Part shown: positions 9,638 through 17,400 of the stretch, one piece after another
How positions within the stretch are numbered: position 1 is the stretch's first letter
How the letters are laid out: each line of letters starts with the position of its first letter
Origin: Nymphaea colorata
Lineage: Eukaryota; Streptophyta; Magnoliopsida; Nymphaeales; Nymphaeaceae
Assembly (NCBI RefSeq): GCF_008831285.2
Contig: NC_045139.1
Location: forward strand, 6,108,204-6,172,203
Reading direction: 5' to 3'
Length of the DNA stretch: 64,000 nucleotides
Translations under genes and position numbers: made by a program
Notes under the pieces: model-generated
What the model was told of the DNA's origin: nothing
The model's database searches: none
What the model saw: the letters and a program-made list of their open reading frames with translations, nothing else

Positions 9638-9809
9638 ATGCAGGCAATGGTACGAGCAATTGGGCGGACGCAAGAGATGAGGGTCTCTCCGGCGGCGTCA
9701 CTGCTCTCCAGAGGCGGGCGGCTGCTGCCCTTCTTCCACTGCAGCCCCAGACGCAGGCGCCATTCCTTCCGCGTTCTTTCCATGTCGCCACAACACCAAC
9801 AGCAGAAGG

Positions 9810-9847
<38 letters not shown>

Positions 9848-12800
9848 GTATGGCTTCTCTGAAAATTGTCTTCACCGTCCCCCTTCTCCTCCTCAGTTTG
9901 TTTTTAAACAGAAAATGGGGGTGAAAGAGAACTTTCAATATCATTGTATCTCAAGAAATCCTTCTGTAGGTCTTTCGTGAACTTTGTGATAACCATTTTA
10001 GTTGTACATAGTTGTACCCTTCGTCACAATGGGCATCTTTCAAATGCAATCAACACAAGTTTTCTGATTAATTATTTCGAAGATGTTGATGGTTTTATCT
10101 AATTTCCAGTTGTACGCTGTTTTCTCTATCCCAATCGAAACAAGTCTCCCCACATCACAAGAATAATGATATACGAGTTCGTGGCGTCCAGTAGAAAACC
10201 CCCAAACAAGAAACTTACTCCGTCACGTTTTGAGCAGGTTCTGATTACGCGTATTAAGCATTTGGCCAACGTTTTTGTAGATGAGATGTCGTGATGTTTT
10301 TTTGCTATAGATTCGTCTCTGATTGAACTAACAGAGATCTATTGAAAATAATTGCTAAGCACATTCTTTTACACAAGTTGGTGAATAGTCTGACGATTAT
10401 TCACTAGTCCACTTTATTGACAAAAGACGTTTACCATGACACTCCGAGTACCACGTTGTTAAATTTCGTCTGGTTTTTTATATGTACTTGCAATTCTCTT
10501 TCTTGTTGAGGCTGCGTAGTGCTATAAACGAGCAATACGATAACTTAGTATCATTTCTTTCACTGGATTGTGTGATCGTTGGATCATTATGGTTGTTCTG
10601 ACAAATATGTTGCTGAAGCTGCCTCTCCTGTAGAACAGGAGCCAGAGGTGTACAGATTTGGAGAAATCATAATTGATAAGCGTCAAGTGTTCTTTAGTAC
10701 GAATCTGTCTTTTGCATTGGTCAATATCAGGCCGGTCGTACCGGGTGAGTGTCATTCTTCTAGAGTCTGATAAACATCTTCCATCCTTTTTCCCCGCTTT
10801 TGATTAATCATTCAAGACTTATTTCAGGCATTTTTTTCTTTTTCTATTCTCTCTGTTTATACCTATAAGTACTTGCACGCTGACCTCTTCGCATTTGTTG
10901 ATATTTACAGGTCATATCCTCTTTTTATAAATATTCAATATTGAAACAAGTGGACATATAAGGGTAGCTCCGGTAAATGTATGTCAATGCCATTTTGTAT
11001 GTTGTTTCTGACCACAGATTTTGTAACTATAAGATATCAAACTGTATTCTTTCTGATTTCTGCATGCACTTCCAAAGTTTGTTTGCAATTTTTGTCAGTT
11101 CTTGAGGTAGCTTATATATTGTTATCATTGCATATCTTGAGGAATCTGGTACGTTGTTATCATGCTTAGTCTGTACTGCATCCTCGCACCATGAAATGCT
11201 TGGCTTTTGCATACGACAGATGATTTTGATGGCTTGGACCCTAATTTGTTGTGTATGCAACTTCCCTTTCTTTGTGCCATTTGAAGGCAGATGGCATTAG
11301 TTAATAAGCATTGCAAGTTTGATTCCCTACCATGCTCAAATATTACCTGTATTGTTAGCCCACTTTTGGTTTTAATTTTCAGTAGTTTGTGCTCTTGAAA
11401 TGTTTCATCTCCTTGACAATGAACACATGTTTTGGTGACTCCAAAGCGATTGGCAAAGCGGTTTGTTGATCTCACTGCTGAAGAAACTGCTGATCTCTGG
11501 CTTGCAGCAAGGCATATTGGTTCCAAAGTTGAAAGCTATTTTGGCGCTTCTTCCCTTACATTTGCACTTCAGGTAATGGTTTTTGAACTTTGTCAATATG
11601 TCTACTTAAACTCCTCTCTATTTCTTATATGTCAGCAACAGGTCAAGTTGTGAGACGGTTTATCTTTGTTAAGTGCTTAATTTAAAATTGCCTCGTGAAA
11701 ATATTAGTGAGCAATCAAATGCTTTCAGGCAGATTAACTTCAACGTTAGAAAACCATATTGTCTCTTTTATGGCTAACCTAATTCTCAGGGCTCAATGAT
11801 GACAGAGACAGATGATAGTGCAACTCTCACGAGCTATTAGATGATTGTAGCTGATGGCACTCTTAACTATAATTGTAACTGTCAATAGTTATTGAGACGT
11901 TCTGTCAATAGTATATGAAATGATGTTGGGATGGTGGCATTAGTTGTGATGACTTGAAGTTTGAACCGGAGAACATCATGATGGACATCCCTAATGTCGC
12001 TTTTCTGTAGGAAGGAAAGCACATCTAGCTAAAACATCTGCCTGGAAATCCCATTCTCTCCATATTTATGAAAGGAAATTTAGAACACTATGTATGAGGT
12101 CTTTATCGAGATTTTTCTTTACTACAACTGGGAAAAAAGGTTTAAAATTTGTTTCGCTTCATTTGATTCAAATGAGCAATGCTTGGTTGTACTAATTCTT
12201 ATCATTTTTTGAGATGAAACCGAAACTATTAGGAGACGGGTTGGGATTCGCCAGATCAAAAGTCTGGATAGCAGAATGTTGCATGGTACAGCTCACACAG
12301 CTCACGCCTATACGCATGATAGCCCTAGAATGGGTTAGCTCATTACAATGATATCAAAGCATAATTCAACACTAGGACTTGGAATCCTATACGTGGTGAC
12401 ACATGTGTCTTAAGCTTGACAAAAGTTTAGTCGTTTCTTGGTTTCTCGTCTTATCTGGTCATCTTCAATAAACCTTGTAACAGATATGAGCCTTGAGGAA
12501 CTGCATATTTCTTACGTGCTCCGGTGCCTTTCTTTTTCCATGGAAATAACAAATAATTCATCACTGGGCCTATTGGTCTTATTAAGAACACAAGCAATTC
12601 TTGCGAGCTTGAAGATTTGCTTAGGGAATTAAAACCATGATCCAGTGGGTTCTCACAGTTTTTCTGTAATTGTGTGTGTTGGAACCGAACCGGATTTTTG
12701 TTTTTGTGTACTTGTTTTCAAATAAAAAAATGGTAACCGTTTTTAGGTAAATTTGACCGGTTTCTAGTGTCATGCTTTGCATATATCAGAAATATTTCTG

Positions 12801-13231
12801 TATGCAAATATCTGTAATATTTGCATGTTGACCGGTGAGTACTGATTGAGTATTTATGTGTACCCGGCTATTTATATATATAGCCTTAAGTGTACTTGGA
12901 ATTAATCAAACATATGATGGTTTTTTCTGATGTGACAGGACGGTCCAGAAGCAGGCCAAACAGTTCCCCATGTTCATGTGCATATCCTCCCAAGGAGAGC
13001 AGGTGATTTTGACAAGAACGATGACATATATTATGCCGTAAGTTTGATATTCATGCAATTTTATTCCTCCTCAGCATCATGAGTATTAGCATTATCACAT
13101 AAGTGATCATATTGCAGATTGAAGATAAAGAAAATGTGCTCAATTTAGATGCAGAGCGGAGGAATCGCACAATGGATGAAATGGCAGAAGAGGCAGAAGA
13201 ACTAAGGAAGCTCATCCCTCAAAATGGCTGA
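9638..13231 (+). CDS. FHIT: FHIT-like bis(5'-adenosyl)-triphosphatase (histidine triad)
   Basis: Spliced gene of 212 codons. Exons: 9638-9808, 10639-10744, 10911-10913, 11427-11572, 12939-13037 and 13118-13231. The histidine triad HVHVHILP is at residues 153-160 (His153, 155, 157), preceded by [10 protein letters not shown]. The core [14 protein letters not shown] through [10 protein letters not shown] is typical of FHIT. Family members hydrolyse dinucleoside polyphosphates such as Ap3A to AMP plus ADP. Two things are odd. The PGHVLV block is rebuilt only if a 3-nt exon (GTC) lies between a GT-AG intron and a U12-type AT-AC intron. The first exon also adds an Arg/Ser-rich 50-residue extension before a second in-frame Met (MSPQHQQQK), which could be an organelle-targeting peptide. 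The choice between the two starts is open. The family assignment is firm. Confidence 0.9.
9812..9845. repeat. (CT)n microsatellite beside the FHIT exon 1 donor
   Basis: About 17 CT units begin a few bases after the donor AAG|GTTCCT of the first FHIT exon, so the tract lies at the very start of intron 1. Confidence 0.9.
10911..10913 (+). other. 3-nt microexon of the FHIT gene
   Basis: The three bases GTC lie between a U2-type acceptor (ATTTACAG) and a U12-type donor (ATATCCTC). Exon 2 ends with one base G, so G+GT gives Gly and C+AT gives His. This produces VVPGHVLVTP, the conserved FHIT block. Leaving the triplet out while keeping the flanking junctions gives Asp in place of Gly-His. This is inferred from sequence; no transcript was seen. 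Confidence 0.7.
10914..11426 (+). other. U12-dependent AT-AC intron in the FHIT gene
   Basis: The intron begins ATATCCTC, close to the minor-spliceosome 5' consensus ATATCCTT. It ends in AC, and CTCCTTGAC, which fits the U12 branch-point consensus, lies with its branch A 10 nt before the 3' end. No AG acceptor that restores the frame exists in this stretch. Confidence 0.8.
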
Positions 13232-14461: not shown

Positions 14462-17400
14462 ATGGCTGCTACTGCTGCTGCCGTTACCGTCTTCCCCTGC
14501 ATCAATGGTCACCAGCCTCGCCTCGGTCTCCTTCGCCATAGATTACCCGCCGGAAAGCCTTCGTCCATCTCAACACGTTTCCATTGTCACGGTTCGAGAG
14601 CCAGGCGTCTGTTCCCGCTCGCTGCAAAGAGTCGGCGGGAGCCCACCCAAGCCGGCGTAGAAGAGAAGGATGAGCCAGAATTCTCCCTTCTTACCGCCAT
14701 GACGACTCCCCATAATGAGATTGTCATCCTTGATACCACCGATTCGAGGATCTTGCTCCTTGATCCTTCCCGTAAGCGTCTTGTTTCTCATTTCTCTTTC
14801 CGGATGATACGGTTTTGGTGCTTTTTCATAGTGCCATGTTGTTTCGCGCTTTCTATTTCTCTTTCCGGATGAAGTGGTTGCAGTGTTTTTTCATTGCGGG
14901 ATGATGTTTCGTGTTTCTTTTTGTTGGTGATGGTGAAGCTGCTTTTTCGTGCTGAATTGTTGTTTTGTTTTTCTGTTTCTTGGTGATGCTGGCGTTGGCC
15001 AATTGCAGCTTGTGCTTTCGGTTTTTCTCTTTAGTGGACCAGTGGTTATGGCGATGGAGTTTTCTCGTTGTGGTTTTGTATTCTATGCTTTTCTCTTTTT
15101 TGGTGATGCTGGTGGCATGTCTATTTAATATTTCTCTTTCACTGTTTGGGGTGGGTTTTTCTTTGTGGGCTGATACATAGTTCTCTTTCTAGTGTTGCAC
15201 TTATGGGGCGACTTCAGTATGGTTTTATGGCTTCATTTGTTGAAGTTGCATTTAAGACGGGACCGCAAAGGGCCGGGCATTTCGTGACCCACTTCTAAAT
15301 TTCATTGCGATTCCAAGAGGGGCCGTACTTAAAGCGAGCTAGCTGTTAGCTAATCATATGGCTACTGATCTTAGAAGAACCTGGGCTTATAGATCAGCCA
15401 TAATTTAGTTACGGCCTCTTCCAGTCATAGGGCATTGCAGAAAGATCTGTTTGTCTCCGTATTAGTAGGTTTCCTCATCTAGTTTGCAATGCTTTATTGA
15501 ATAGTGGCTATCTTCCCTGCCCTTTCATAAATGGGGAAGATTCCATTTGGGATGCGTTTAAGTAATTGCCTGCGAGACTCCAAAACAGTAAACATGTTGT
15601 GTGTATTAGTTAAAACTTAAAAATTGTCTGTTGGAAAGCTTTCAACTCAAGCATTTTGCTTACTGTTCTTTTTTGACCGACACTTCATGAGAACTGAGGT
15701 ATAGATATTATCATAGTACTCTGAATCTATGCAGCTCAAAGTGGGAGGCTTGTAAAACCTTTTTGTTGCCAGAGAAACAAAATTGTGAATGAACATGCAT
15801 CCTATAATGGATGAATAAAAAAGTGTATGTAGTTTAAACTATATAGCAACAAATACGTTTGTACACGAATCAGTTAAAATGGAGATGAGAGTGTAATCCG
15901 TGCATCTTAAAGTGGAGAAGCTTATGGATCTTTCTTGCCTGAGAAATATAATCGTGAATGCATATGCGACCTATAATGAATGACAAATACGTATCTGTAG
16001 GAAACAGGCAAGGAATAGCATGTCAAGTTCTATAGTGCCTCCAATAGGCATAACAGTAAGCTGAATTCGGTTTAGCAGTCAGATTTGAACATGCATATTG
16101 ACTTGCTAGGATATCTGAATATGTCAGTTCACATTACTTTTGTTTGCATCATCACGTTTGTGATATCTGAAACTTTTGCAATTGACTTTGATAACGTCTG
16201 ATATGATTATGACCCTGTTACAAAATACATCCATGCAGATAACATCCACAGCATATACATGAAGGAGACAAAATGGACAGGTTCATATTGGGTAAAGAAT
16301 GCTTTTCTCTCCTTTGATTGTTTTTTTCTTTTTTAATCTGCATTTTTACCATTTGATTAAGAAAACTGAATGGTCCTGTATTTGGATCATTTCTACCGTT
16401 CTTACTATCAGATCAGTTGCCACTATTTCTTAGTTGCATACATGGACATATTCTGAAGACATTCATGCAAAAGGTTCTCAAACTAATTCAGGAACTATGA
16501 ACTATGCCTTCTTCAATACACTCTGATTAATGATGCAATTGTTGTGTCATGGTTTAACTTTCAGTCTGTCAATTTGACTGTGAACAAAATGATAGCAAAC
16601 CAGTTCCTGATTTCATATTCTGGTTATTCTAGGCAGTTGGGCATACTTTCCTAATAAAAACTTTTTTTCTTTCATTTCAGGTATTTCTTGAAAGCTTCCA
16701 TATTTTTATTTGCGTATGCTTCACTGACTAATAATCCTAATGATAGAAAAGTTCACAAGGTTTAAAGCAAAAAATCCATATGCATGTGAAGAGTACTTTG
16801 TCATATCATCATTTCTGGTTCTATCCTCTCGTCCACATCTTTCTCTCTCTCCCCCATATATGACACTGTTTTATTTTCATGTGATGCCTTTATGTTCCCA
16901 CTCCCCATTCATATGCAACTACCAAACCCATGAAACAAGTGATTTGCTTATGTTTGCCTTTGTATTTTGATTGTAGAATTAGAAGTGTTAACTATTCTAG
17001 TGTTTCAACTGCATCCGGTAGTGATATTTATGTAATTAAGTTCTCATTTTGTATCCATTTGAGAACATAGCAGAACTTTAATAATTTTATCTAAAAGATA
17101 GTTTCTGTGCGAAATTTCCAAAGAAACAGGCTGCTGTTTGAATTTGAAAAAAAAATGTCAGTTCATCATTGTCTGTCTCCTCATTGTCATTTATCATGGA
17201 AAACTGCAGTGACTGTTCAATAGCGTCATCCTTTCCTATTTTTGAACATCTTCACAGAAGAATGTTCATTCTCCCTATGCAAGTTGACTGGACTCTTTCT
17301 AGTACCATCTGCAGCATGGGTGGTAAATTTGTTCTTTTACCATTGTCAATATCAAGCCACATGTCGTTGCTCACCTAACCACATAAATCCTATTCAAATT

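Follow-up and report, generated by a model that had tools for sequence, protein, structure and literature searches.

A Plant FHIT Gene with a Predicted Three-Nucleotide Microexon That Separates a U2-Type Intron from a U12-Type AT-AC Intron

Results

A FHIT-Type Gene Containing a Putative Three-Base Exon

The window, i.e., the 64-kb stretch of DNA that was analyzed, carries on its forward strand a gene that we call FHIT-a (all coordinates below are on the + strand). Its profile score places the product among the HIT proteins (Pfam HIT, PF01230, 92.0 bits), and within these it belongs to the FHIT group, with the bis(5'-adenosyl)-triphosphatase type of HIT protein. It matched human Fhit (1fhi) at 5.1e-43, the segment PVVPGHVLV being identical in the two, and its best match among structure chains was 9uch (3.1e-46). 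The frame is open and includes the HVHVH active-site motif (HxHxH).

Exon 1 (9677-9847) starts at the first ATG and encodes a basic N-terminal extension. When donor/acceptor pairs with an open frame were enumerated, six exon-1/exon-2 choices stayed open, which leaves the N terminus uncertain; the 3' end of exon 1 is likewise uncertain, because a CT repeat lies there. A donor after 9847 used with the acceptor at 10639 gives a protein of 212 residues, and a donor after 9808 with the same acceptor gives one of 199. The N-terminal extension resembles an organelle-targeting peptide, and a second Met precedes FHIT proper. Exon 2 (10639-10744; 106 nt), which can be aligned to a second gene, FHIT-b (see below), with no gaps, encodes EPEVYRF...NIRPVVP and the first base of a Gly codon. 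Its 3' end is CCG G (GTCGTACCGG), followed after 10744 by GTGAGT.

The intron that follows (10745-10910; 166 nt) is, from its sequence, a U2-type GT-AG intron. It runs from CGG/GTGAGT to ATATTTACAG, with a branch-like CTGAC at 10880-10884 and the acceptor TTTACAG ending at 10910. Next comes a putative exon of only three bases, GTC (10911-10913), which would supply the last two bases of the Gly codon and the first of the His codon in the conserved PGH; the same triplet occurs in FHIT-b. Across it, the spliced frame of FHIT-a reads RPVVPGHVLVTP. The triplet is followed directly by a U12-type AT-AC intron (10914-11426; 513 nt), with the 5' splice site ATATCCTC (ATATCCTY; 10914-10921) and the branch element TCCTTGAC (11410-11417), both located by motif scanning (that for the 5' splice site covering the 64 kb), and with the 3' splice site CAC (11424-11426), where FHIT-b has TAC. 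The earlier note had placed a GT donor after CCG G at 10744, an acceptor ending at 10910, the GTC triplet and, beyond it, a U12-type donor, a branch element and a terminal AC (11425-11426), and every one of these elements lies where it had been placed.

Exon 3 (11427-11572; 146 nt; ATGTTTTGG...CTTCAG), which was recognized by Pfam HIT, encodes (H)VLVTPKRL.... Exon 4 (12939-13037; 99 nt) contains the active-site HVHVH, and exon 5 (13118-13231), assigned from its sequence and open frame, extends to the stop codon TGA. Within the U12-type intron there is also a competing, strong-looking U2-type acceptor, CTTTTGGTTTTAATTTTCAG (11363-11382), followed by TAG; it ends 44 bases upstream of exon 3 and is a possible cryptic or regulatory site. 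Further downstream, at 14462-14770 on the same strand, is the likely start of another gene (MAATAAAVTVFPCINGHQPRLGLLRHRLPAGK...), with an N terminus resembling a plastid transit peptide.

Both FHIT genes have the 5' splice site ATATCCTY characteristic of U12-type AT-AC introns (ATATCCTC in FHIT-a and ATATCCTT in FHIT-b), as well as a TCCTTRAY branch element near the 3' end with a terminal YAC (TCCTTGAC..CAC and TCCTTAAT..TAC, respectively). The distance from branch to acceptor is about 9-10 nt in both, slightly less than the optimum of 11-13 nt given in the available text of PMC3584512. The upstream introns have the U2-type ends GTGAGT/TTTACAG (FHIT-a) and GTCGGT/TTGGCAG (FHIT-b, with a weak donor), the U2-type assignment being made by comparison with the consensus sequence.

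The GTC Triplet Is Needed to Read the Conserved Block

It had been claimed that the conserved FHIT block is obtained only when GTC is included, and this was borne out by enumeration of splicing models. With donors at 10691-11400 and acceptors at 11380-11499, 2039 single-intron models of FHIT-a were in frame if any intron ends were allowed, 22 of them with GT-AG, GC-AG or AT-AC ends. None of these 22 gave VVPGHVLV; the nearest, an AT-AC intron joining 10753 to 11427, reads VVPGECHVLV, i.e., with two residues inserted. When the U12-type intron was fixed and an upstream intron added, 14 of 60 two-intron models were in frame, and only the one joining 10744 to 10911 gave an uninterrupted VVPGHVLV. 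The 13 others were rejected, all having residues deleted from, or inserted into, the conserved block.

The exon 3 frame has a TGA at 11420-11422 (one of two in-frame TGA codons before exon 3) and no AG ends within 11386-11445; therefore, no GT-AG intron delivers HVLV in frame. When the donor at 10745 was paired with AG acceptors and the AT-AC intron was not used, 26 of the 32 pairings led to premature stops, including that with the acceptor ending at 11382. The six acceptors that left the frame open start at or beyond 11484, within exon 3 or just past it.

Omission of GTC lowered the Pfam HIT score of both genes (FHIT-a, 92.0 bits with the triplet and 76.2 without; FHIT-b, 101.1 and 85.4 bits, respectively). 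Because the proteins without it are still far above the HIT cut-off of 21.5 bits, the drop in score does not by itself exclude skipping of the triplet. The product of skipping, in which a single GT-AC intron (10745-11426) is removed, keeps an open frame and has PD in place of PGH. As to the claim that the total frame closes at 212 codons, the figure holds for the 9847 donor and the 10639 acceptor, but its value as evidence does not: GTC is three bases long, and frame closure does not discriminate between its inclusion and its omission.

A Diverged Second Gene Has the Same Arrangement

The genome searched was an assembly of 407.8 Mb in 783 contigs. A HIT-family search, with 12 candidates scored, yielded at least five matches on at least three contigs: two were FHIT-a itself, one lay on contig C1, and two represented FHIT-b on contig C10. 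The stop codons marked inside the two matches in the window are as expected for stretches whose starts lie within the introns preceding exons 3 and 4.

FHIT-b has an open reading of 160 residues, and its first exon starts at an ATG 12 nt before the part that could be aligned. Exon 2 of FHIT-a and the aligned part of FHIT-b (whose start was set by the alignment) are both 106 nt, and exons 3 and 4 are also of equal length in the two genes, at 146 and 99 nt. The reading begins MAAEDPGF, without the N-terminal extension of FHIT-a. The aligned part ends ...CTTCCTG/GTCGGT, and the U2-type intron of 2179 nt that starts there ends in TTGGCAG/GTC/ATATCCTT, with the GTC microexon at C10:24700364-24700366. 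The U12-type intron that follows is 465 nt long, with the branch element TCCTTAAT, a terminal TAC and the 3' junction TCCTTAATGTATTTAC/ATGTGCTGG. The U2-type intron of FHIT-b (L012:9685-10000 plus L010:2-1864, on C10) is thirteen times as long as its counterpart in FHIT-a, and its donor, GTCGGT, is unusual in having C at +3 and G at +4, a poor match to GTRAGT.

The two genes are well diverged, with 68 of 118 residues identical, a dS of 1.51 and a dN of 0.31 (Nei-Gojobori method; about 80 synonymous sites, hence a large error); dN/dS is about 0.2. A genome duplication in water lilies is placed at a KS of about 0.9 in the accessible text of PMC7015852. With a dS exceeding that value, although the estimate is rough, the split between FHIT-a and FHIT-b may be older than the duplication. 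Outside the exons, the best matches between the introns were short (10-29 bases, with an E value of 0.013 at best), and those between homologous introns (U12/U12, 0.013; U2/U2, 0.61) were no better than those between non-homologous ones (0.013 and 0.050). Because the introns around it are without clear similarity, the composite site stands out as a conserved island. The evidence for conservation comes from two genes of one genome, in one lineage. Since the long-diverged FHIT-b has the same arrangement, the microexon pattern of FHIT-a is probably real and under selection, and not due to chance. The proposed FHIT microexon of 3 nt, with a U2-type intron on one side and a U12-type AT-AC intron on the other, is well supported, and the matching structure of this diverged paralogue adds to that support.

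Among our other sequence collections, no plant FHIT gene was found in genome_contigs, where 111 candidate stretches yielded two bacterial loci of 28-33% identity; 18 candidate stretches from viral_contigs yielded no FHIT relative.

The Composite Pattern Is Rarely Reproduced by Chance

When 10745-11426 was shuffled 4000 times with its dinucleotides preserved, the motif ATATCCTY by itself arose in 170 of the shuffles, and a loose combination, YAG followed after 1-30 nt by RTATCCYY, in 219. The stricter YAG-NNN-RTATCCYY arose in 9, the set of U12-type donor, branch element and YAC/YAG in 4, and YAG-GNC-ATATCCTY in none. In 2000 shuffles of the corresponding interval of FHIT-b (2647 bases), 288 had ATATCCTY alone and 85 had YAG followed by ATATCCTY after 1-15 nt; the composite pattern was not seen at all. 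The single motifs are weak evidence for the composite site, and the combination is strong evidence.

The 14-base composite YAGGTCATATCCTY occurs 10 times in the genome (408 Mb, both strands), compared with 4 occurrences of a reversed-pattern control. A U12-type branch element with YAC lies no more than 1.5 kb downstream in 2 of the 10 copies, which are exactly those in FHIT-a and FHIT-b, and in none of the other 8. Estimated from these 8 genomic copies, the number of chance sites expected in the FHIT-b interval is about 2.6 x 10^-5.

On the + strand of the window, ATATCCTY occurs only twice, at 10914 and at 12982. The second, also a perfect ATATCCTC (12982-12989), lies within exon 4 of FHIT-a, where it codes for HILPRR. 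The only branch-like elements that could be paired with it, at 14727 and 14757, are beyond the stop codon of the gene, and the site is probably a coincidence.

Genes for Components of the Minor Spliceosome

A search for U6atac small nuclear RNA genes gave 5 matches over the cut-off, the best scoring 97.6 bits, and a U12 small nuclear RNA gene was found at 88.9 bits. By contrast with this genome, the same two families had no match in 14 control genomes. Judged by the presence of U12 and U6atac genes, the organism has a minor spliceosome. The U6atac matches comprise two strong genes and three weaker ones (67.4, 58.2 and 34.9 bits; L018-L020), the latter perhaps being variants or decayed copies.

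Discussion

A Probable Hybrid Microexon and Its Proposed Sequential Splicing

We consider it very probable, on the strength of the sequence evidence above, that the triplet GTC is a conserved microexon of a plant FHIT gene, flanked by one intron of each spliceosome, and that the two introns are spliced in sequence. In the element CAG/GTC/ATATCCTY, only three bases would separate the 3' splice site of the U2-type intron from the 5' splice site of the U12-type one. The two would be too close to be bound simultaneously, so that the introns would have to leave one after the other, and sequential splicing at this site can soundly be inferred. Either order of removal would produce the identical mRNA, because each step leaves GTC joined to an exon of normal size. 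The incompatibility of the two spliceosomes may at the same time protect the triplet: a U2-type donor would hardly pair with an AC acceptor, which would bar plain skipping of GTC, while splicing of that donor to any of the ordinary AG acceptors that were tried would lead to premature stops or to partial loss of the HIT domain.

The earlier note had suggested, as one solution, an order in which the AT-AC intron leaves first, but this part of it found no support, the U2-type intron of FHIT-a being short and transcribed earlier; removal of the U2-type intron first is at least as likely. We somewhat favor the latter order in FHIT-a, because the intron is only 166 nt long, has a GTGAGT donor and is transcribed first (its acceptor is made 516 bases ahead of the U12-type acceptor), and because U12-type introns are slow (early experiments in vitro are reported to show splicing 3-5 times slower; PMC3584512). 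In FHIT-b, removal of the U12-type intron first may be the commoner course, because its U2-type intron of 2179 nt is long and has the weak donor GTCGGT. The stronger view that the AT-AC intron is always removed first, thereby giving the U2-type acceptor a normal exon, is unlikely to be correct. The U12-type donor and branch element of FHIT-a are near consensus, and the order is plausible in FHIT-b, given the length of its U2-type intron and its weak donor. However, in FHIT-a the short U2-type intron lies upstream and U12-type introns are reported to be slower (PMC3584512, as far as its text was available), and the assumption is not needed, since removal of the U2-type intron equally gives the U12-type donor a normal neighboring exon.

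Less likely still is that the site serves as a regulated switch, in which some transcripts are diverted to premature stops, either by competition within the composite site or by use of the 11382 acceptor, so that the level of FHIT is tuned. The large share of AG acceptors that give premature stops when used with donor 10745 (26/32), the strong-looking one ending at 11382 among them, is what such a switch would exploit, and the slow removal of U12-type introns has been proposed to be rate limiting (PMC3584512, in its available part). However, cryptic acceptors that break the frame are expected in any intron, and we saw no sign of regulated use.

It is very improbable that GTC is not an exon at all and that a single hybrid GT-AC intron (10745-11426) is removed, giving a protein with PD and not PGH. 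Such an intron would keep the frame open, its donor and acceptor both exist, and its product passes the HIT cut-off. However, it would require a U2-type donor to be used with a U12-type acceptor, and mixed GT-AC ends are reported to be disfavored (PMC3584512, in the text available); it destroys PGH, which lowers the HIT score of either protein by about 16 bits, and it leaves the presence of CAG/GTC/ATATCCTY in two diverged genes unexplained. That the locus is a non-functional copy, or the pattern an accident, is hardly credible: single motifs and looser combinations are indeed common in shuffled sequence, but the frame is open and contains HVHVH, dN/dS between the genes is about 0.2, and the whole pattern recurs in FHIT-b and is absent from 4000 and 2000 shuffles, respectively.

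A sequentially spliced microexon thus being the preferred reading, we tentatively raise a more far-reaching one, which we think somewhat doubtful: CAG/GTC/ATATCCTY might be a ratchet between spliceosomes that is old and under selection in plant FHIT genes. As a hybrid splice site of the recursive type, it would let splicing to the acceptor by one machinery prepare the donor for the second, and the mismatch between the two would make a 3-nt exon practically unskippable.

Origin of the Intron Pair

We take it that in human FHIT the His35 codon is interrupted by an intron behind its first base (the end of exon 5, at c.103), a position that coincides with that of the U12-type intron. If this is right, the AT-AC intron is perhaps old, and the U2-type intron three bases upstream a later arrival. 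An origin of the U2-type intron by tandem duplication of the junction between exon and U12-type donor was unsupported: the similarity between the end of exon 2 and the flank of the microexon was reached in 266/2000 and 237/2000 shuffles. Nor did the intron appear to be a repeat, in that the sole genomic match to the query 10739-10918 was the query itself, although a search of this kind does not prove rarity.

Comparison with Known Systems

In our literature searches, no report combining FHIT with U12, minor-intron or microexon terms was among the matches listed, and no case combining U12 with a microexon, a twintron or recursive splicing was among those listed for these terms (titles and starts of abstracts). 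Several known arrangements nevertheless share features with the FHIT exon. U2- and U12-type introns can lie side by side, and PMC8034651 reports that the two spliceosomes can interact by exon bridging. As in those genes, a single FHIT exon has a U2-type acceptor upstream and a U12-type donor downstream; unlike the normal-sized exons that are bridged there, its three bases would leave no room for bridging. In the U2/U12 twintrons, such as that of prospero and 18 human cases (as described in the available part of PMC3564746), the sites of two spliceosomes are also closely packed. However, twintron introns are competing alternatives, whereas the FHIT introns are adjacent and non-overlapping, and both must be removed to obtain VVPGHVLV.

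Another parallel is with the ratchet points and RS-exons of Drosophila (PMC8605326, in the text available), where an acceptor abuts a donor and the first splice prepares the second. The recursive exon is there mostly left out ("0-nt" splicing), although some are included, as in Ubx. At the FHIT site, by contrast, the acceptor and donor are offset by three bases, the donor is of the type used by the second spliceosome, and the mRNA would retain the three coding bases; U12 is not mentioned in the available text of that paper.

The plant microexons cataloged by Yu et al. (2022; PMC8831610, as far as its text was available) range from 1 to 15 nt, down to the 1-nt exons of APC11 and VPS55, and are often unannotated. 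By its sequence, GTC is likewise an internal coding exon within this size range that is required to spell a conserved protein block, and it is conserved in a related gene, the paralogue FHIT-b. That survey, to judge from the same text, took only GT-AG or GC-AG introns, whereas the intron downstream of GTC in FHIT is U12-type AT-AC. Because AT-AC introns were not considered, an exon of the FHIT type would have been outside its reach; this is a blind spot in which such exons would be missed and their genes could be misannotated. The FHIT pair offers a natural, duplicated test case for whether an exon below the size needed for exon definition can be spliced when its two ends belong to different spliceosomes, and for whether spliceosome mismatch enforces exon inclusion.
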